A program made the translations under genes and the position numbers. The notes below the pieces were generated by a model, which was not told the DNA's origin, made no database searches, and saw only the letters and a list, made by a program, of their open reading frames with translations. Positions 2,746-41,862 of a stretch of DNA of 41,862 nucleotides are shown piece by piece. Origin of the DNA: a virus; the IMG/VR virus record IMGVR_UViG_3300045051_000115, positions 1 to 41,862 of that record; one strand, given 5' to 3'. Numbering within the stretch: position 1 is the first letter of the stretch; each line of letters begins with the position of its first letter.

Positions 2746-2940
2746 ATGGCCCGCTCGACCGCCTCCCCCGCTCGATTGACCGCCCAAGCGAACGCGGTCG
2801 TCGGTAACTGCGCCCGTTGCAAGTACGAGCCGCAGCCCGACGGGTTCGCGTGGGTGTTCCATCGGCAGGGACGGCGGGTCGGCCGCACGTACAACCCCGG
2901 CGAGGTTATCCGACTCGCGGAACGGATCGCGGCTCAGTAG
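2746..2940 (+). CDS. Small hypothetical phage protein
   Basis: 64 residues, starting directly after the stop of the binding-protein gene (TAA then ATG). It carries one CARC motif and is otherwise basic and polar, with no membrane segment. It is followed almost immediately by the polymerase N-half, so it belongs to the same transcript. I do not recognise a family; a nucleic-acid-binding or polymerase-accessory role would be a guess. Confidence 0.6.
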   Translation: MARSTASPARLTAQANAVVGNCARCKYEPQPDGFAWVFHRQGRRVGRTYNPGEVIRLAERIAAQ

Positions 2941-2942
2941 TG

Positions 2943-4280
2943 ATGACCCTCGCCCCGCCCCCGCCCGCGCTGGCCGATCTGCGCGCCGGTACGCAACTCG
3001 TCGCCGGCATGGGCCGTGCGACGATCCTGCCCGATATCGACTTTGAAACATACAGCGAGGCCGGGTACGTGTGGGATGCGCCGGCCGGCAAGTGGCGATG
3101 CCTGCCGAACGCTGCGCAGGGTAAAAAGGGATTGCCGATCGTCGGCGCGGCCGTCTATGCGATGCACCCGTCGACCGAGGTCTTGTCGTTCGCGTACGAC
3201 CTTAAGGACGGGACCGGCTCGCACCACTGGCGGCCAGGTCTGCCCAACCCGGCCAACCTGTTCGCGTGGATCGCTCGGGGCGGTTTGCTCGAAGCACACT
3301 ACTCCGGCTTCGAGCATTGGATATGGAACTACGTGTGCACGCGGCGCTACGGTTGGCCGTGGCTCCCGCAGGCCCAGCTCCGCGATAGCGGCGCGAAGGC
3401 TCGGGCACATTGCCTGCCGAGCAGCTTGGGCAAGCTGGGCGCCGTGCTCGGGATCGAGAATCAGAAGGATACGGACGGTGCGCGATTGCTCAAGAAGTTT
3501 TCCATGCCGCGCGATCCGACGAAGACCGACCCGCGGTTGCGTATCGTGCCCGTGCCGGACGCCGAAAAGGCGTTATGGGAAACCCTGCCAGCCATCGGCG
3601 TAAAGAAGATCCCCCGCGTCATTGCCGCTGCACGCGCCGACGCCGAGGACACGCTGCGCCTCTACGCATACAACACGCGCGATATCGTCGCCGAGGGCGA
3701 AGCGTCCGCGCTGATCCCCGACATTGAAGGCGAGGAGCTAGATTACTTCCTCGTCGATCAGGCGATCAACTACCGCGGCGTGGCGATCGACCTGCCGGGC
3801 GTCGAGGCGTGTTGCTCAATCATTGATCAGGCGCTTGAGCGGTACAACGCCGAACTGTACGCGCTGACCGGCGGCCAAGTCGCGCGGGCGTCTGAGATTG
3901 CGCGGCTGACCGGATGGCTCGGGACGCTCGGCATCTACCTCGATAGCTTGGACGAAGACGCAGTCGACGCGGCCCTCAAGCGTACGGACCTCCCCGCCAT
4001 CGCGCGGCGCGCGTTGCAGATCCGCGCGACGGTGGGATCGGCCAGCGTCAAAAAGGTCTATTCGATGCGCAACCGCGTATCGCCGCTGGGCCGCCTGCAC
4101 GACCTTTACAACTACCACGGAGCGCGCACGGGCCGGGCAACCGGCGACGGGCCGCAGCCGACCAATTTACCCAACTCGGGGCCGGACGTTTGGGCGTGCG
4201 AGTGCGGGGCGTACTTCGGGCTGCATCGGATCGCTTGCCCTGAGTGCGGCGAGTCGCCTATCGGGGATATTCCATTTTGA
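2943..4280 (+). CDS. DNA polymerase family A, N-terminal fragment (3'-5' exonuclease half)
   Basis: 445 residues. This is the proofreading exonuclease and the first part of the polymerase domain. Exo I is DIDFET (Asp33, Glu35), Exo II is probably HYSGFEHWIWN, and Exo III is YNTRD near residue 245. Near the C terminus GARTGRATGDGPQPTNLPNSG is the segment that leads into the polymerase active site, followed by a zinc-ribbon-like CEC...CPEC. The frame then stops, before catalytic motifs A, B and C, which are encoded at 4992-6119 after an intervening gene. The start is ATG 2943; a GTG at 2940 overlapping the previous stop is an alternative. The two halves must associate for activity if both are functional; this is inferred. 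Confidence 0.85.
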   Translation: MTLAPPPPALADLRAGTQLVAGMGRATILPDIDFETYSEAGYVWDAPAGKWRCLPNAAQGKKGLPIVGAAVYAMHPSTEVLSFAYDLKDGTGSHHWRPGLPNPANLFAWIARGGLLEAHYSGFEHWIWNYVCTRRYGWPWLPQAQLRDSGAKARAHCLPSSLGKLGAVLGIENQKDTDGARLLKKFSMPRDPTKTDPRLRIVPVPDAEKALWETLPAIGVKKIPRVIAAARADAEDTLRLYAYNTRDIVAEGEASALIPDIEGEELDYFLVDQAINYRGVAIDLPGVEACCSIIDQALERYNAELYALTGGQVARASEIARLTGWLGTLGIYLDSLDEDAVDAALKRTDLPAIARRALQIRATVGSASVKKVYSMRNRVSPLGRLHDLYNYHGARTGRATGDGPQPTNLPNSGPDVWACECGAYFGLHRIACPECGESPIGDIPF

Positions 4281-4281
4281 T

Positions 4282-4995
4282 ATGAGCACGCCACGCCACA
4301 TCGTCGGAGTATCGGGCGGCAAAGACAGCGTCGCGCTGGCGCTCGCCTTGCGAGGGGCGGAGCCGCGCGACTACGAATATATCTGCAATTGGACAGGCAA
4401 CGAACTGCCCGACATGGCCGCGCACATGGCGCGAATCGAGGCGCTACTCGGGAAGCCGATACGGCGCGTGACATACAGATTCGACCTTTTCGGACTGATA
4501 GATGAACTCGGCATGATCCCGAATTTTCGAGCCCGCTTCTGCACGCGGGTTCTCAAGATCGAACCGACGATAGCGTTCTTCGAGTCTCTGCCCCCCGAGT
4601 CCGTTCTATACGTCGGGCTCCGAGCCGACGAAGAAGAACGCAAAGGACTGTACGGCGACGACGTGCGCGTTCGCTACCCGATGCGCGAGTGGGGTTGGAC
4701 GGAGGCGGACGTGTGGCGATACCTAGATGCGCGCGGCATCTGTATCCCAAAGCGAACGAATTGCGCCGTTTGCTATGACCAGCAGATCGGGGAGTGGCAC
4801 GACCTATACCAAAATCATCCGGTCGAGTACGCCCGCGGAGTGGCTGCTGAAATCACGCACGGTCATACGTTCCGAAGCGATAAGCGCGACACCTGGCCGG
4901 CGTCCCTTCTCGAACTGGCGCAAGAGTTCGAGAGCGGCCGAAAACTTCGCAGGCGCGCGAAAGCCGCCCGCGCATGTCGGGTGTGCTCGGTATGA
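4282..4995 (+). CDS. PAPS-reductase-like PP-loop ATP pyrophosphatase, inserted between polymerase halves
   Basis: 237 residues. The PP-loop SGGKDS (residues 11-16) places it in the adenine nucleotide alpha-hydrolase/PAPS reductase superfamily, which activates substrates with ATP, often for sulfur chemistry. Other visible marks are CTRVLKIEP (Cys87), GLRADEEER near 112-120, and paired cysteines CAVC (161, 164) and CRVC (232, 235) that could hold zinc or an Fe-S cluster. Phage members are common and of unknown function; tRNA or DNA modification is possible. It begins one base after the stop of the polymerase N-half and its TGA overlaps the start of the C-half, so it splits the polymerase cleanly. 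Confidence 0.8.
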   Translation: MSTPRHIVGVSGGKDSVALALALRGAEPRDYEYICNWTGNELPDMAAHMARIEALLGKPIRRVTYRFDLFGLIDELGMIPNFRARFCTRVLKIEPTIAFFESLPPESVLYVGLRADEEERKGLYGDDVRVRYPMREWGWTEADVWRYLDARGICIPKRTNCAVCYDQQIGEWHDLYQNHPVEYARGVAAEITHGHTFRSDKRDTWPASLLELAQEFESGRKLRRRAKAARACRVCSV

Positions 4996-6119
4996 CCGCC
5001 ACCCGCACCGAATGGAACCACGACGCCGCGGAGTTTGCCCTGCGCGTCATCGCGCCCGGCTCGCTCGATCTGGTCGAGTGGTACTTCGGCGAGGCGATGC
5101 CGATCATATCGGGATGCCTGCGCGGACTCTTTGTCGCAGCGCCCGGCCACGATCTGATCTGCTCCGACTACTCGTCTATCGAGGCGGTCGTGCTGGCGGA
5201 ACTGGCCGGCGAGCAATGGCGGCAGGAAGTGTTTCGCACGCACGGCAAGATTTACGAAACGTCGGCCGCGAAGATCATCGGCGCAACGCTCGACGAGTTC
5301 ATGCGGCACGCCGGCTATAGCGACGCCCAGCTCGCAACGCCCGCGTGGTGGACGCTGAAACCGGCGAACCCCGGCAAGCACCACCCCAAACGGAAGATGG
5401 GCAAGGTCGCGGAGCTGGCGAGCGGATATGGCGGATGGGTCGGATCGTGGAAAGCGTTTGGCGCCGACGAGTTTCTGACCGACGACGAGATACGGCAAGC
5501 GGTCATCGCCTGGCGCGAAGCGAGCCCGGCCGTCGTCGAACTGTGGGGCGGACAGGAACGCAACTGGCGGCCGGAATTCTTCGGCATCGAAGGCGCGGCC
5601 GTGTCCGCGATCCTGCAGCCGGGCGTCGAGTTCTCGTACCAAGCGCCGAACAGTACCGACCGCGCGTCGTTCGTCATGCGCGGCGACGCGCTCTATTCGC
5701 AATTGCCCTCCGGCAAGTACCTGACCTACCACCGGCCGCGCCTGCGCCCCAGCGACCGCCGGCCGGGGACGTGGGCTATCTCGTACGAGGGATGGAACAC
5801 GAACCCGAAGAATGGGCCGGTCGGCTGGATCCGGATGGACACGTACGGCCCGCGCCTCGTCGAGAACCGCGTTCAAGCCGTCAGCCGCGAGATATTCAAG
5901 ATCGCGAGCATAGCGGCCGAGCGCGCGGGGTATCACGCCTCGGCGCCCGGCGGCTATCCGATCGTCCTGCACACGTACGACGAAATCACGGCCGAAGTGC
6001 CAGGAGGTACGGGGAGTGTCGAAGAATTCGAGCGAATCATGTCGACGATGCCCCCGTGGGCCGCGACATGGCCGGTAAAAGCAAAAGGGGGATGGCGTGG
6101 CAAACGATACAGAAAATAG
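4992..6119 (+). CDS. DNA polymerase family A, C-terminal fragment (catalytic half)
   Basis: 375 residues containing the catalytic core missing from 2943-4280. Motif A is CSDYSSIEA (catalytic Asp59), motif B is KMGKVAELASGYGG at about 135-150, and motif C is HTYDE near 326-330. ATG 4992 overlaps the PAPS-reductase stop as ATGA; an in-frame ATG at 4974 would overlap more and has no better ribosome site. The first residues (TEWNHDAAEFAL) match, from memory, the segment that directly follows the zinc-ribbon linker in intact phage homologues, so the break lies in a domain linker. The reading frame is the same as that of the N-half (4992 minus 2943 is a multiple of three). Confidence 0.85.
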   Translation: MTATRTEWNHDAAEFALRVIAPGSLDLVEWYFGEAMPIISGCLRGLFVAAPGHDLICSDYSSIEAVVLAELAGEQWRQEVFRTHGKIYETSAAKIIGATLDEFMRHAGYSDAQLATPAWWTLKPANPGKHHPKRKMGKVAELASGYGGWVGSWKAFGADEFLTDDEIRQAVIAWREASPAVVELWGGQERNWRPEFFGIEGAAVSAILQPGVEFSYQAPNSTDRASFVMRGDALYSQLPSGKYLTYHRPRLRPSDRRPGTWAISYEGWNTNPKNGPVGWIRMDTYGPRLVENRVQAVSREIFKIASIAAERAGYHASAPGGYPIVLHTYDEITAEVPGGTGSVEEFERIMSTMPPWAATWPVKAKGGWRGKRYRK

Positions 6120-6906: not shown

Positions 6907-7099
6907 CACGCTCACGCTCACGCCCGAGGAACTTATCGACCTCACCGGATGGCGCCAGCCGTCCCGGCAGATCGAATGGCTGACCCGTGCCGGCGTGCCC
7001 CATTTTGTGCGCCGCGACGGCCGACCGCGCGTCGTTCGGGCGGCGTTGTTACAATCGAAGGCCGAGGAATCGAACAGGCGCCCCCGTCTGAGGCTATGA
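6899..7099 (+). CDS. DUF4224 protein, integrase-associated
   Basis: 66 residues from GTG 6899. The sequence LTPEELIDLTGWRQPSRQIE followed by WLTRAGVP and RRDGRPRV matches the DUF4224 family, which in many phages lies immediately upstream of a tyrosine integrase. A role as a DNA-binding accessory factor such as an excisionase is often suspected but not proven. The TGA overlaps the integrase ATG (ATGA), so the two are translated together. Confidence 0.8.
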   Translation: MTDTLTLTPEELIDLTGWRQPSRQIEWLTRAGVPHFVRRDGRPRVVRAALLQSKAEESNRRPRLRL

Positions 7100-8046
7100 G
7101 CCGCGACCTACCGCCCCGAATGTATTGGAAAAACGGCGCGTATTGGTACGTGCGTCGGAACAAGTGGACGCGTCTGGCTCGCGAGCTTCCGGCCGCCCTG
7201 CGCGAGTACGCCAAGCTGGAAGAAATGGGCGGTGGCGGGCTCGACGAGATATTGCAAATCTTCCTTGACGACGCCGCCGGCCAGGTCAAGCCGTCATCCC
7301 TCAAGGGATACCGGATCTATGCGGACCACTTGTCCAAAGCGTTCGCCGAGTTCCGGCCGGACCAAGTGTCCGCGAGCGACGTCGCCCAATTCATGCGCGC
7401 GCACCGCGACCACCCAGCCAAGGCAAACGGGATGCGGACGGTCCTTAAGATCGCGTTCGACAAAGCGGTCCTGCTCGGACTGGCGAAGACGAACCCCGTA
7501 ACGAGCGTCCCGCGCTTCAAGGAAAAGAAGCGGACTCGCTACATTACCGACGCCGAGTATCGCGCGGTGCAGGCGAAGGCCCGCCCCCTGCTTGCCGTAA
7601 TCATCGAAGTGTGCTTGATGACGGGGCAGCGGATCGGCGACGTCCTCAAGATGCGCCGAACCGACCTTGACGACGAGGGCGTATTCGTAGAACAGGAGAA
7701 GACCGGGCACCGGCAGAAAATCGCCTGGTCGCCCGAACTGCGCGCGGCGATCGATGTGGCGAAGGCATACGGAGGCAACGTCAAGGGTGCGACAGTCCTT
7801 TGCGACCACCGCGGCGCCCCGGTCAAGTATTCGCGCGTGCACATGCAATGGGTCCGCGCCTGCATCCTCGCCGGGGTTGATGACGCCCATTTGCACGACT
7901 TGCGGGCGAAGGCCGGCAGCGACACGAAAGCGGAAAAAGGCGACTCTATGGCCCTGCTCGGGCACAAGTCCGAAGCGAGCCACGCGCGGTACATGCGGGG
8001 GCTCGACGTCCCGGTCGTACAGCCGACGCGCCGCCGCAAGTCTTAG
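7096..8046 (+). CDS. int: Tyrosine site-specific recombinase (phage integrase)
   Basis: 316 residues. It catalyses attP x attB recombination. The N-terminal part has an arm-binding-like segment and a SAM-like core-binding domain (about 50-145). The catalytic set is visible: Arg179 in TGQRIGDVL, Lys202 in EQEKTGH, His267 and Arg270 in HDLR, His290 in LLGHKS and the nucleophile Tyr299 in RYMRG. Start ATG 7096 is coupled to the DUF4224 stop; longer upstream starts would run through DUF4224. It is the last gene of the early right operon and no promoter of its own was seen, so its expression probably follows the early promoter. The attachment region should lie just downstream. Confidence 0.93.
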   Translation: MSRDLPPRMYWKNGAYWYVRRNKWTRLARELPAALREYAKLEEMGGGGLDEILQIFLDDAAGQVKPSSLKGYRIYADHLSKAFAEFRPDQVSASDVAQFMRAHRDHPAKANGMRTVLKIAFDKAVLLGLAKTNPVTSVPRFKEKKRTRYITDAEYRAVQAKARPLLAVIIEVCLMTGQRIGDVLKMRRTDLDDEGVFVEQEKTGHRQKIAWSPELRAAIDVAKAYGGNVKGATVLCDHRGAPVKYSRVHMQWVRACILAGVDDAHLHDLRAKAGSDTKAEKGDSMALLGHKSEASHARYMRGLDVPVVQPTRRRKS

Positions 8047-25530: not shown

Positions 25531-25592
25531 CGTGCGATATCGCACGTCAAGAAATAATTGCTTTTGCGATATTTTCGGCTATGATATGGCGC
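25531..25592 (+). promoter_or_regulatory. Promoter and operators of the head-cluster cassette
   Basis: TTGCTT (25558-25563), a 16-base spacer and TATGAT (25580-25585) make a good sigma-70 promoter; the predicted start at about 25592 abuts the ATG at 25593, implying a leaderless mRNA. The -35 overlaps ATTGCTTTTGCGAT (25557-25570), one mismatch from ATCGCTTTTGCGAT at the right early promoter. A perfect 16-bp palindrome CGTGCGATATCGCACG lies 25 bp upstream centre to centre (25531-25546). The site is therefore probably bound by the phage repressor or Cro-like protein. Confidence 0.65.
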
Positions 25593-25874
25593 ATGGATCG
25601 CGGAATACTGCCCCTCCTCGCCGAACAAGCCGGATTTACGCTACGGCAGCGTGTGGCGTTACAGGCCAAGCTGCAGCGATTCGCCGAGCTGGTCGAGCGA
25701 TCCGAAGCGCCGCCGCCACGCCGGCCAGAAGCTCCGGCGAGTCGGTTTACCCCTGAGTCCGAGCGCCCGGTACGCCTCGTGACTTGCGTAGAATGCGAGC
25801 ATGAGTACGACGGAGCGCGTAAGGCACGCTGCCCCGCCTGCGGCTCATTCATCAGAAAGGATGCAACGTCATGA
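25593..25874 (+). CDS. Zinc-ribbon protein, first gene of the inserted rightward cassette
   Basis: 93 residues from ATG 25593. The helical N-terminal part (LAEQAGFTLRQRVALQAKLQ) is followed by a Pro/Arg-rich linker and a C-terminal zinc ribbon CVECEHEYDG...CPACGSF. The ribbon suggests binding of nucleic acid or RNA polymerase. It runs against the direction of the surrounding late genes and has its own operator-bearing promoter. Its TGA overlaps the next ATG. An alternative ATG at 25581 would lie inside the -10 box. Confidence 0.7.
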   Translation: MDRGILPLLAEQAGFTLRQRVALQAKLQRFAELVERSEAPPPRRPEAPASRFTPESERPVRLVTCVECEHEYDGARKARCPACGSFIRKDATS

Positions 25875-26089
25875 GCGACCGTCTTACTTTGGAAATTGAC
25901 TGCGACCGGGGAACCGTCACAGCGTCAAACGATTTGATGGACTCCCGAGAGCTGGGCCGGGCGCTCGAAACGTCCAAGGCGTCACTTATCGCTCAACTGC
26001 TGCTCCCCGAAATCCGCCGCATGATGCAAACGCCGAAAGCGGACCTGATGCGCGAGCACCTGGCGCTGCTGCAAAAGGACGCGGAGTAA
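25871..26089 (+). CDS. Small hypothetical protein, cassette gene 2
   Basis: 72 residues from ATG 25871 with AGAAAGGA upstream and ATGA coupling to gene 1. It contains LTLEIDCDRGTVTASND and a long helix (ETSKASLIAQLLLPEIRRMM). No membrane segment, signal or known motif. Coupled organisation supports a real gene; function unknown. Confidence 0.65.
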   Translation: MSDRLTLEIDCDRGTVTASNDLMDSRELGRALETSKASLIAQLLLPEIRRMMQTPKADLMREHLALLQKDAE

Positions 26090-26271
26090 TGGGGCACTCG
26101 AACCGGAAATCGAAGCGCCGGATACGAGAACTCAAGGCACCTAAAGCGCTCCGCCCGATCGACTGGAAAAACGGAGTTTCCTACGAAGTCGGCGACCGCG
26201 TCATTCTCCGCGGCGAGGAGGTCATCATCGTCGGCACAGGAAATAGCGAGTATCTGCCGCGCCCCGACTAG
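26089..26271 (+). CDS. Small basic protein, cassette gene 3
   Basis: 60 residues, sharing one base with the preceding stop (TAATG). A strongly basic N terminus (HSNRKSKRRIRELKAPK) is followed by a small SH3/KOW-like beta part (SYEVGDRVILRGEEVIIVG). Binding to RNA or DNA is plausible. It ends 4 bases inside the convergent Mu F-like gene. Function unknown. Confidence 0.65.
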   Translation: MGHSNRKSKRRIRELKAPKALRPIDWKNGVSYEVGDRVILRGEEVIIVGTGNSEYLPRPD

Positions 26272-30525: not shown

Positions 30526-30561
30526 GGCATGCGATATATCACGGGCATGCAACAGGGGCAA
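30526..30561 (-). promoter_or_regulatory. Candidate late promoter for the structural operon
   Basis: Reading minus: TTGCCC (30561-30556), 17-base spacer, TATATC (30538-30533). The predicted start is at about 30526, next to GTG 30525, so the message would be leaderless. The -10 overlaps TGCGATATATCAC (plus strand 30530-30542), which shares TGCGATAT with the repressor operators. A late activator may be needed since the boxes are weak. No other minus-strand promoter stands out before this 22-kb gene block. Confidence 0.35.
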
Positions 30562-30567
30562 GAAAAA

Positions 30568-30850
30568 CCTTTGGCCCACAGCGGCCCGCAGCGGCCCACT
30601 ACCTGCGGGCCACCCTAACTATCTGTTTTATAGTAGTAATGTACCCTTTGGCCCACTGGCCCACAGCTTTCTCTATCCCCATACGTAGGGTATATATGGG
30701 TCTATATGTATAGGGTAAATAGACATATATCGTATAAACATATACCGTTCCTATAGTGGGATTGAAAAGCTGCGGGCTGCGGGCCAGTGGGCCAAATACC
30801 GCCCAAATCGCGCGTAATCAACGACCTATAATTTCGCGTTTGGCCCGCTG
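30568..30850. other. Candidate replication origin: iterons and AT-rich core
   Basis: No gene fits here. Four copies of TTTGGCCCRC occur: 30570-30579, 30647-30656, inverted at 30787-30796, and 30839-30848. A perfect 16-bp inverted repeat TTTGGCCCACTGGCCC (30647-30662) with GGGCCAGTGGGCCAAA (30781-30796) flanks about 95 bp of unusually AT-rich DNA rich in TATAT and CATATA strings, in a GC-rich genome. Iterons plus an unwinding element suit a replication origin for the primase-helicase encoded nearby. A packaging site or partition-like site is the main alternative, since the terminase small subunit lies next to it. Confidence 0.5.
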
Positions 30851-30857
30851 CAACATA

Positions 30858-30900
30858 TTGACAGTAACCGCCATATAATATAGTCTTCGAGATAGGAGGA
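30858..30900 (+). promoter_or_regulatory. Promoter and strong ribosome site of the 130-aa gene
   Basis: TTGACA (30858-30863) and TATAGT (30879-30884) are 15 bases apart; TATAAT at 30874-30879 is an alternative -10 with a poorer -35. AGGAGGA follows at 30894-30900, 9 bases before ATG 30910, giving a near-consensus ribosome site. No operator motif is visible, so this gene may be expressed when the early promoters are repressed. Confidence 0.6.
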
Positions 30901-34735: not shown

Positions 34736-35202
34736 GCGTCGTCGCCGGTAGTGAACCGAGCATCGCCCCCGAGGGCGTTGACCAGTTCGATAAATTTCAA
34801 CTGCGCCAGCTCGCGCGCCGTTCCTGCGAAGCGCCAGCCGGCCTTTTTGGCCTCGCGCGCCGCAAACTGCCCGAAGACCTGGCCGATCATGTCGGGCGTA
34901 ATGAGCCGGCGTCGTATGCCGATCAGATCGGACGACTTGAGGACGGAATTGATCGCGCCGGAATCGTTCGCCAGGCCGAAGCGGATCGGCACGCCCCGCG
35001 CATCGGGCAGTACGCCGACGTTGTTGCGCCAGAGTCGGTCGCCTTGCTTGCTCCAATCGACGCGCAACTGCGACTGTATGGCGGCCTCGCTCGCGCCGGG
35101 CGTGGCGGACGGCTCGGTCGGTGCGTCGGCCAGCATCAGGGCGCGCAGGTCGTCCAGGGCTCCCGCGGACACGCCCCAGCGTTGCGCCCATCGGTTAAGC
35201 AC
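34732..35202 (-). CDS. VRR-NUC nuclease
   Basis: 156 residues from GTG 35202. Residues about 45-150 hold the VRR-NUC form of the PD-(D/E)XK fold: EAAIQSQLRVDWSKQG, then SSDLIGIRRR and a C-terminal helix pair (REAKKAGWRFAGTARELAQL, KFIELVNALGGDARF). The family is found with phage helicases and is thought to be structure-selective, for example on branched DNA. It sits between the GIY-YIG gene and the membrane protein in the replication operon, matching the common phage trio of helicase, VRR-NUC and primase. Confidence 0.85.
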   Translation of the reverse strand: MLNRWAQRWGVSAGALDDLRALMLADAPTEPSATPGASEAAIQSQLRVDWSKQGDRLWRNNVGVLPDARGVPIRFGLANDSGAINSVLKSSDLIGIRRRLITPDMIGQVFGQFAAREAKKAGWRFAGTARELAQLKFIELVNALGGDARFTTGDDA

Positions 35203-35923
35203 GACGCGCCCTCACGGCTTCCGTCCGGCAGGTGTTGGAGCAGTACTTCCCCCGCCCCCTCGCCGCCTCCGACAGTTTTACGTCAAAGGATTTTTCGCAC
35301 CACAAGCACGTCGCGGGGGTCTTCTTCGAGGTCGCGGCGCCTTGGCATTTATTCGAGCAATAGACCCCCTCCCCTCGGCCAGCGTTACCCCGAGTCACTT
35401 TAAACAGCGCTCCGCAGGCGTTGCATACACGGTCGACGCGGCTCACTTTTGCGGCGTCGCAACAGACCTTCGAGCAGTACTTCGCTTTCCCTTTCGCCAG
35501 GTCGCTAGGCTTTGCATCGAAACTCTTGCCGCAGTGCTGACACGGGCGGGGTTTTCTGGTTCTAAGGTAGGGGCGCTCTTTTTGGGCCAGGCCAGCCGCG
35601 GACATTTTCGCGCGTGATTCGGGCGAATGCTTATGACCGGTAAGGCCGTCTCCTCCGATGGCCAAGTTGTACCCCTCCGGCGCTCGCGTCCCGTGCTCGA
35701 AGATCGCGAGGGTTTCCAAAGTGCACAGCTCGTTCCAGTCGTCGGACTCGGCGAGGATCGTCAGTACGGCATCCGACTTCCCGTATTTTTTAAAGGCTTT
35801 CCCGAGCGGCGTTTTGGCTCCGGGGGCGCTGTGCTTTTTCCAGCGAGACGCCGCGGACACGGACGAAATGCCGATGTAGCTTTTCCCGCTCGTCTTAAAC
35901 GTGATTTTATAGAGTTGCCCCAT
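35195..35923 (-). CDS. GIY-YIG nuclease with three tandem zinc-finger modules
   Basis: 242 residues from ATG 35923, with GGAGAGGG upstream; the 22 residues before it look non-coding. The GIY-YIG domain covers about 1-90 (LYKITFKTSGKSYIGISSV, TLETLAIFEHGTRAPEGYNL). A NUMOD3-type segment follows (GHKHSPESRAKMSAAGLAQK). Three zinc modules then repeat, each C-x2-C-x3F...YCS-x3-C: CQHCGKSF, CNACGALF, CLWCEKSF. This is the build of a homing endonuclease (nuclease plus DNA-reading modules) standing free between host genes. No intron is visible around it. Confidence 0.85.
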   Translation of the reverse strand: MGQLYKITFKTSGKSYIGISSVSAASRWKKHSAPGAKTPLGKAFKKYGKSDAVLTILAESDDWNELCTLETLAIFEHGTRAPEGYNLAIGGDGLTGHKHSPESRAKMSAAGLAQKERPYLRTRKPRPCQHCGKSFDAKPSDLAKGKAKYCSKVCCDAAKVSRVDRVCNACGALFKVTRGNAGRGEGVYCSNKCQGAATSKKTPATCLWCEKSFDVKLSEAARGRGKYCSNTCRTEAVRARRA

Positions 35924-35993
35924 TACGCGGCCCTCTCCAACAACGCTACGGCCAGCGCGGCGGGCGGTATGGCGTGGCGGATGGCCCAAGCGG

Positions 35994-38918: not shown

Positions 38919-39125
38919 TTAGGCAATTGCGCGGCGACGGCCGCAATGCTGACGATGCAACGCGATAAGCGCCTGACCGTCGGTCCATTTAAGATCGTCG
39001 TACCGGCCGGAGAGAACGTCCGCCACCCATGTCTGAGACTTGCCGGGCTCGGGCATCGCTTCGCCGATTTGTGCCTGCGTGAGCCCCGACGCTTGAAGCT
39101 CCGCGATAAGTGTTTTCCAGTCCAT
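38919..39125 (-). CDS. Cro-like helix-turn-helix regulator
   Basis: 68 residues. TLIAELQASGLTQAQIGEAM, then SQTWVADVLSGRYDDLKW and ALIALHRQHC show a compact helix-turn-helix protein of the kind found opposite phage repressors. It is divergent from the repressor gene, first in the early left operon, with its promoter between them. The ATG 39125 lies about 2 bases from the predicted transcription start, so the mRNA is probably leaderless. By analogy it should turn down the repressor on induction. Confidence 0.8.
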   Translation of the reverse strand: MDWKTLIAELQASGLTQAQIGEAMPEPGKSQTWVADVLSGRYDDLKWTDGQALIALHRQHCGRRRAIA

Positions 39126-39133
39126 GGGAAGTC

Positions 39134-39199
39134 ACAATATCGCAATAGCGGTATTTCGTCAATCGCCTATGCGATGAATTTTTGTATCACAATTGCGAT
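39134..39199. promoter_or_regulatory. Immunity operators and divergent promoters
   Basis: Three 14-bp sites fit ATCGC-N4-GCGAT: 39139-39152 (one mismatch), 39162-39175 (perfect) and 39186-39199 (one mismatch), 23 and 24 bp apart, the lambda OR spacing. The leftward promoter has TTGACG (39162-39157 minus), a 17-base spacer and TATTGT (39139-39134); the first two sites overlap its -10/-35 area. The third site abuts the repressor ATG at 39200, whose own promoter is weak to the eye, as for lambda PRM. Confidence 0.8.
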
Positions 39200-39595
39200 A
39201 TGACTAGCATCGGCAAGCAAATCAGGGCTTTAAGAAAGGCGAAGGGTTGGACGCAGGGCGAACTTGCGAAAGCTGCGGGCCTATCGCAGACGACCATGTC
39301 CGACCTTGAGCGCGGGCGCAATCAAGGGTCGCGCGAGCTAGACGTGATCGCCGCAGCGCTCGACGTAACGCCCGCGGCACTACGCAAGCCCGACGCCATC
39401 TTTACCGACGCGAAGGGCAACGTTATGGCGATCGAGATTAAGGCGTCGCGCCGTAGCGGACGGCCGCCGATCGTCGGTGAGATACTGGCCCTGATGGAGA
39501 AGATCGACGACGTCGGTTTGGCGGATCTGCGCGGCCAGGCGAAGCAGTTGGTAAAGACCAACCCGCGCCGCAGTAAGGTAAACGCTGCGAAGTAG
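39200..39595 (+). CDS. Phage repressor, HTH (Xre type), without visible cleavage domain
   Basis: 131 residues from ATG 39200. Residues 1-60 are a standard Xre/Cro helix-turn-helix (IGKQIRALRKAKGWTQGELA, AAGLSQTTMSDLERG). The C-terminal 70 residues (AIEIKASRRSGRPPIVGEIL, DDVGLADLRGQAKQLVK) are too short and lack the Ser/Lys catalytic signature of LexA/CI peptidases, so self-cleavage on SOS induction is unlikely. The TTG at 39182 would overlap operator 3. The start sits against the operator, suggesting a leaderless message as for lambda cI. It controls both early operons by inference. Confidence 0.85.
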   Translation: MTSIGKQIRALRKAKGWTQGELAKAAGLSQTTMSDLERGRNQGSRELDVIAAALDVTPAALRKPDAIFTDAKGNVMAIEIKASRRSGRPPIVGEILALMEKIDDVGLADLRGQAKQLVKTNPRRSKVNAAK

Positions 39596-39669
39596 TGGTG
39601 CTGTCGGACTGGCGCTCTCGGATCGTACAGGGTAGTCTCGATCTTGCGAACTGACTAAAGGCATATGCC

Positions 39670-40323
39670 ATGCAGAAAATTATCGCTTCGCTTTTTGCCG
39701 TTTTCTACGCTGCAGTCGCACATGCCGACCCAGTCCCCTTCTCCGCATACGGGACGATCCTTGACGCCCAGACGGTGAACGAATCGACCGGCGCTACCGT
39801 TGCCGGCGCGGCGCTCGGCGCTGCGGCAGGCTCAGCCACCTATGCCGACAAAGCGTCGTCTTACTCGGCGACTAGCCACTTAGGGGCGGCCGTACTGGGC
39901 GGGCTGGTCGGGTCGCTTTTTGACTCCCCAGCTCGTGCGAAATATCGCACGCGCTACACGCTGAAGGGCGCCGACGGCGTAGTCCGATACGTCGAGGAAA
40001 TTAGCGCCGAGCCGTTCCACCACTCGCCCGGCATGTGTGTCGTACTATTTCCGATGCGCCTCGCTCCTCCCGACTTCTGCACGGTCGGCGGAGACGCCCT
40101 GCCGCCATCTCCGATCGCCGTTGACGACGTCGTCTGGGTATTCCAATCGCCAGCGCGCGCCTATGAGACGCCCGCTACTGCCGCTGCCCCCGTGCGCGAA
40201 CTGGCCGTAGGCGTTGCGGTAAAGGTCGTCCATATCTTCAAGGATCGCCTCAAGGTTCGATCCTCTGACGGCGCCTTGTTCTGGGTGCCGAAAGACAGCG
40301 TCCGTACGGCTTTAACGCTGTAA
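39670..40323 (+). CDS. Exported glycine-zipper/SH3-like protein, likely lysogenic-conversion gene
   Basis: 217 residues. A signal peptide (MQKIIASLFAVFYAAVAHA, cleavage after Ala19, no lipobox Cys) is followed by glycine-zipper segments (GATVAGAALGAAAGSATY at about 41-58 and HLGAAVLGGLVGSLF at about 70-84), as in outer-membrane 17-kDa-antigen-type proteins. The C terminus looks SH3b-like (GVAVKVVHIFKDRLKVRSSD). It lies directly behind the repressor in the same direction, so it is probably made in the lysogen. Changing the cell envelope, for example superinfection exclusion, is the likely role. It is not a virion gene by position. Confidence 0.75.
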   Translation: MQKIIASLFAVFYAAVAHADPVPFSAYGTILDAQTVNESTGATVAGAALGAAAGSATYADKASSYSATSHLGAAVLGGLVGSLFDSPARAKYRTRYTLKGADGVVRYVEEISAEPFHHSPGMCVVLFPMRLAPPDFCTVGGDALPPSPIAVDDVVWVFQSPARAYETPATAAAPVRELAVGVAVKVVHIFKDRLKVRSSDGALFWVPKDSVRTALTL

Positions 40324-40369
40324 TCCCCCTCCGCAAAAAGCACGACCCGGTACTCGCTCGTCAAAAATA

Positions 40370-40428
40370 ATCGCTTTTGCGATTGACAAGATAAACCGCA
40401 TATGCGATATTGGCGTTGCGGTATCGCA
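40370..40428 (+). promoter_or_regulatory. Right early promoter with repressor operators
   Basis: TTGACA (40383-40388), 17-base spacer, GATATT (40406-40411); start at about 40418. ATCGCTTTTGCGAT (40370-40383, perfect) overlaps the -35 and ACCGCATATGCGAT (40395-40408, one mismatch) fills the spacer and -10, 25 bp apart. TGCGGTATCGCA (40417-40428) lies over the start, one mismatch from the core of the 25531 palindrome. Bound repressor would block RNA polymerase. This promoter should drive the entire plus-strand operon through the window junction to the integrase. Confidence 0.75.
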
Positions 40429-41432: not shown

Positions 41433-41862
41433 ATGCAAATCACTAAGCAGCTTCTCAAGGATTGGGGAGCTTGTCGCGACGGATACGGCTGGTTCGTCGA
41501 CAAGTTTCCGCAGGGGGCGCCCTATGCCGAAGTCCTCGGCGCGCTGCGCAGCGACAAGCGCTACGACGACTCGCGCTGGCTGGCTAACCGGGTCTTCGCG
41601 TCCTTCACGACGAACCCCGACCAGATCGCCCCGACCGTCGAGTCGGAGGTCAAGCAGGCGATCGAAGAAACGAAGGATTCGCCGAATTCGGCGTCGGGCG
41701 AGTCCAGCACGGCCGCATCGTCGGGCAATTACAGCACGGCCGCATCGTCGGGCGAGTCCAGCACGGCCGCATCGTCGGGCGAGTCCAGCACGGCCGCATC
41801 GTCGGGCGAGGCCAGCAAGGCCGCATCGTCGGGCTACGCCAGCAAGGCCGCATCGTCGGGCG
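41433..41862 (+). CDS. N-terminal part of the 27-nt-repeat protein, runs off window end
   Basis: 143 complete codons before the edge. The unique head (about 85 residues: KQLLKDWGACRDGYGWFVDK, FPQGAPYAEVLGALRSD, RWLANRVFASF) matches from memory the N-terminal domain of phage DUF7666-type repeat proteins. Nonapeptide repeats follow from about residue 87. The remaining repeats and the C-terminal domain are at 1-382. The frame is kept only if the missing or overlapping segment obeys codon phase: merging the 77-base match 41786-41862 with 7-83 keeps the frame. Confidence 0.8.
   Translation, partial: MQITKQLLKDWGACRDGYGWFVDKFPQGAPYAEVLGALRSDKRYDDSRWLANRVFASFTTNPDQIAPTVESEVKQAIEETKDSPNSASGESSTAASSGNYSTAASSGESSTAASSGESSTAASSGEASKAASSGYASKAASSG
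41691..41862 (+). repeat. 27-nt tandem repeat array (end part; continues at 1-178)
   Basis: Units of 27 bases built on GCCGCATCGTCGGGC encode x-x-S-T/K-A-A-S-S-G, where x-x is ES, NY, EA or YA. At least six units are here and six more at 1-178. Nucleotide identity between units is very high, with changes confined to the two variable codons and one T/K codon, which points to recent expansion or ongoing recombination. The window edges lie in this array. Confidence 0.9.

Follow-up and report, generated by a model that had tools for sequence, protein, structure and literature searches.

In phage lambda, three operators lie between the divergent repressor and Cro genes, with more at the second early promoter, past the repressor gene; the operators overlap the -35 and -10 elements, and their centres are 23-24 bp apart. 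A RecA-cleavable (S24) repressor is common in regions of the lambda type, without strictly defining them. The immB regions of the telomere phages PY54, N15 and phiKO2 hold a lambda-like cI/cro region, in which only one site, OR3, has been recognised for PY54, and the CI and Cro mRNAs of PY54 were found by RACE to be leaderless (PMC4488713). Mycobacteriophages carry stoperators, numerous asymmetric repressor sites that lie outside the immunity region and stop elongation (PMC9283540).

The locus considered here belongs to IMG/VR record IMGVR_UViG_3300045051_000115, whose 41,862 bases (positions 1 to 41,862) constitute the window, that is, the whole stretch of DNA that was analysed. Its late genes, encoding portal, MuF head morphogenesis, scaffold, major head and tape measure proteins, run leftward with the small terminase gene at their upstream end; a primase-like gene and a helicase gene to the right of them are leftward too, and a Cro-like gene and a repressor gene diverge at 38.9-39.6 kb. 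The phage, which has an integrase gene (6949-8046), is temperate, and the region of operators and regulators is its immunity region. The right early operon extends past the window end and the exonuclease gene that follows it in relatives sits at the window start, so that the record was probably cut open inside a repetitive gene; AASSGESS-type repeats at both ends of the window (41640-41862 and 1-200) also suggest an opening inside one such gene. Elsewhere, a family A DNA polymerase is seemingly split into two open reading frames (2817-6119), with a PAPS-reductase-domain gene (4282-4995) between them, and the early region holds a GIY-YIG-like endonuclease with zinc-finger-like repeats recognised by eye (35195-35941), possibly a homing endonuclease. 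In the gap upstream of the small terminase gene (30560-30860), a possible packaging site, a TTTGGCCCAC/GGGCC element recurs several times, in both direct and inverted orientation.

A weight matrix trained on five immunity-region sites, with the one at 25557 left out, detects six sites of the form ATCGC-N4-GCGAT at 20-27 bits in the 41.9 kb window, where all other matches score at most 11.3 bits. The held-out site reaches 21.7 bits, a score at which 0.01 sites are expected per shuffled genome. All six are intergenic, though 86% of the window is counted as coding, so that strong sites do not occur as often in coding as in intergenic DNA, a comparison on which an earlier, sequence-only reading of this DNA had staked its operator motif. 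That reading correctly placed three sites between the repressor and the Cro-like gene, namely O1 (39139-39152, ATCGCAATAGCGGT, one mismatch), O2 (39162-39175, ATCGCCTATGCGAT, perfect) and O3 (39186-39199, ATCACAATTGCGAT, one mismatch), spaced 23 and 24 bp apart, and two sites 25 bp apart at the right early promoter (40370-40383, ATCGCTTTTGCGAT, perfect; 40395-40408, ACCGCATATGCGAT, one mismatch). It had also expected one or two sites at the head cluster, of which one exists (25557-25570, ATTGCTTTTGCGAT, one mismatch), between the scaffold and MuF genes, and no second.

Promoter hexamers are in register with the operators at both early promoters. The leftward promoter of the Cro-like and replication genes (39134-39162, minus strand, TTGACG-17-TATTGT) has the first T of its -35 at the edge of O2, and O1 covers its spacer and -10. 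The rightward early promoter (40383-40411, plus strand, TTGACA-17-GATATT, a 10/12 match with TG before the -10) is laid out alike, the first operator of the right pair overlapping the -35 edge and the second the spacer and -10; the two early promoters therefore share one design. A strict promoter-pattern scan of genome contigs gave two matches. The Cro-like helix-turn-helix (HTH) gene (38919-39125, minus strand) encodes 68 aa and matches phrog_6831 (E=6e-11). The repressor gene (39200-39595, plus strand), whose ATG follows O3 at a distance of 0 nt, encodes a 130-aa protein with an HTH_3 domain, in which Pfam found HTH domains only and no S24 peptidase domain, so that induction may differ from that of lambda; some family members have longer repressors that appear S24-like by eye. 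The gene between the repressor and the right operator pair (39670-40323, plus strand), with a signal-peptide-like start, is likely co-transcribed with the repressor in lysogens.

The likeness to lambda lies in the divergent HTH repressor and Cro-like genes, in the three repeated operators between them, with a spacing in the range of about 20-24 bp, and in the reuse of this operator at another early promoter, past the repressor gene. The window differs in its mirror orientation and operator sequence, in having two sites at the far promoter against three in lambda, in a repressor in which no peptidase domain of the RecA-cleavable (S24) type was detected, and in a sixth operator placed on a cassette. 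With PY54, N15 and phiKO2 it shares the lambda-like cI/cro region, but the operators differ. The early region of Burkholderia phage BcepC6B has a similar gene order (Cro-like, repressor, small genes, exonuclease, DUF2815) but another recognition helix and TGTACA repeats, and lacks GCGAT operators. The window also resembles the stoperator phages in having a site of the immunity-repressor type outside the immunity region; however, this is one extra palindromic site on a candidate promoter, as opposed to many sites dispersed through the genome. With the window repressor as query, IMG/VR returned nothing, phages distant matches only and plasmids one match; Cro-like proteins as query found no matches in phages. 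The operator is absent from named phages with similar repressors, and a literature search with the half-sites yielded nothing relevant. What we describe is an ordinary lambda-type immunity region with an undescribed operator specificity, to which the operator on the inserted cassette is an interesting addition.

A scan of IMG/VR for two tandem operators returned at least 119 stretches, where a rough estimate gives about 4 expected. The full layout is common to a set of 12 records, comprising the window, G001-G007 and G011-G014. Repressor-family and Cro-like proteins both align across all 12, and the repressors have a common recognition-helix motif, xQ[TSA]T[IVM]. L127 and L178 are the closest in sequence. 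The O1-O2-O3 spacing is 22-24 and 24 bp across the set. In every record the gap between O3 and the repressor ATG downstream is 0-1 nt (1 nt in two of them); the Cro ATG follows O1 at about 9-13 nt in nearly all, and most have a pair 24-25 bp apart past the other end of the repressor gene. The family thus places O1 on the Cro promoter, O2 at the -35 of that promoter and O3 against the repressor ATG. The operator set common to both early promoters, the core of the lambda-like network that had been proposed, is thus strongly supported by the matrix and by 11 other phage records. Most of the weaker matrix matches inspected in family members are inside genes.

When 80 loci were retrieved by nothing but the DNA pattern, 71 had a repressor-family gene within 3 kb. 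Only this figure is used, because most matches of the Cro model were cross-hits on the repressor; a count of both families near 70 of the 80 loci was dropped for that reason, and a distinct Cro-family gene is found in only 11. The control regions of 80 backbone relatives, retrieved through the helicase, are essentially free of these operators, and the relatives yield only three weak matches to the repressor family, which argues that the module is transferable and travels independently of the backbone. We take the region to be a transferable, mirror-image lambda immunity module.

The position of O3 bears on how the repressor gene may be expressed. Its fourth base is A in 12/12 records, most other half-sites having G. 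If transcription starts at the ATG, this A would occupy -11, the position that matters most in a -10 element and where a leaderless promoter would need it (where the gap is 1 nt, in two records, the A would be a base more distant). This suggests that O3 doubles as the repressor's own -10. In none of the 12 records does the short gap before the repressor ATG leave space for a Shine-Dalgarno sequence, and the Cro -10 elements in this set are about 5-8 nt before the ATG; the repressor and Cro mRNAs probably start at, or a few bases from, the AUG. In PY54 the leaderless CI and Cro mRNAs are an experimental result, whereas the leaderless starts of the window are predicted from sequence.

Taken as a whole, the observations are best explained by a lambda-like, mirror-image switch with a sixth operator on a cassette, to which we assign a probability of roughly 0.85. 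The repressor, and probably the Cro-like protein too, would bind the ATCGC-N4-GCGAT operators, O1-O3 controlling the divergent Cro/replication and repressor promoters and the right pair the rightward early operon. In the lysogen, both early promoters would be occluded by repressor bound to O1/O2 and to the right pair, while the O3 site, which borders directly on the repressor start codon, would let the repressor (and Cro) limit repressor synthesis. The sixth operator would keep the three-gene cassette silent in the lysogen, and the cassette would open with the lytic genes.

That cassette (25593-26271, plus strand), encoding a zinc-ribbon-like protein of 93 aa and proteins of 72 and 60 aa, lies between the scaffold and MuF genes on the strand opposite to the leftward head genes. 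The distance from MuF to capsid is 1,440 bp in the window and only 690-815 bp in several relatives, a comparison that marks the cassette as a moron-like insert. Gaps of 2.0-3.7 kb occur at this same place in L257, L264, L270, L284 and L309, such longer gaps containing other inserts, so that insertion here, within the head genes, is recurrent. Some 31 bases around the 25557 operator share 90% identity with the region of the right operators. The operator overlaps the -35 and spacer of a proposed rightward promoter, TTGCTT-16-TATGAT (25558-25585, plus strand), which was read from the sequence, has a weak -35 (3/6 match) and was not listed by the promoter scan, being below the threshold of the tool; a start from it would fall at the ATG at 25593. 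Because of this overlap the operator most likely silences the cassette in lysogens. The earlier suggestion that the regulators also govern an inserted cassette is to this extent upheld, by one strong operator on a candidate promoter.

The site at 25557 could alternatively serve a leftward head/scaffold promoter, in which case the immunity repressor would control the head genes directly. A suitable hexamer pair, TTGACG (25550-25545) -17- TACAAC (25527-25522), is found just left of the operator, ahead of the point at which the scaffold gene begins (25449), and its spacer contains a palindrome, TGCGATATCGCA (25533-25544). The operator, however, lies upstream of that -35 and would not occlude the promoter, which makes this reading the less likely one; the pair is also below the threshold of the scan tool, and the closest cassette-free relatives have little room between MuF and scaffold. 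We consider direct control of the head genes unlikely, and the rightward cassette promoter is the better match for 25557. The palindrome itself was tried as a second head-cluster operator and rejected, since its half-sites face inward and the matrix does not recognise it as an operator. The two inward palindromes TGCGRTATCGCA, at 25533-25544 and 40417-40428, are more than chance would give (0-0.2 expected) and flank operators; neither form is conserved in the family.

A wider role for the regulator pair, extending to the late genes through octamer sites such as that at 30530, was also part of the sequence-only reading. The exact octamer TGCGATAT is indeed over-represented (9 copies in the window against 1.3-1.7 expected), but four of these copies are half-sites of operators, and another two come from a single palindrome counted once per strand. 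The copy at 30530 is a single octamer beside the small terminase start; it has no second half-site in operator orientation, no promoter there exceeds the threshold, and the matrix finds no operator at that position or elsewhere in the late region except at 25557. Neither is the octamer similarly frequent in family members. Common control of the late genes by these means is therefore not supported, and we consider it highly improbable. The most general objection, that GC-rich coding DNA generates the operator motif by chance, could draw on the loose pattern, which with up to two mismatches gives 78 matches against 57 expected; this enrichment is only mild because many weak coding matches are counted. 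The intergenic position of all strong sites and the conservation of their geometry in other phage backbones refute a chance origin, which we regard as practically negligible.

Placement of a moron under the immunity operator may have a parallel in G011, where an extra operator (0.07 expected) stands upstream of an Acyl_transf_3 gene (L225:11773-12861; G011:31673-32761), 1 nt from its ATG and so against the start codon in the manner of O3. The case suggests that the immunity repressor may have captured morons more than once. Tentatively, and with rather less than even odds, the immunity family might recruit morons through extra operators whose type sets the timing, the -35-overlapping operator of the window making its cassette lytic-timed and the O3-like operator of the G011 acyltransferase gene making it probably lysogeny-timed.

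The conserved O3-ATG junction offers a ready test case for the autoregulation of a leaderless repressor gene, and the inserted cassette appears to be tied to the immunity repressor. Defined from sequence alone, the immunity group is common to phages with unrelated backbones, and it leads to a prediction of which ones ought to be immune to one another.
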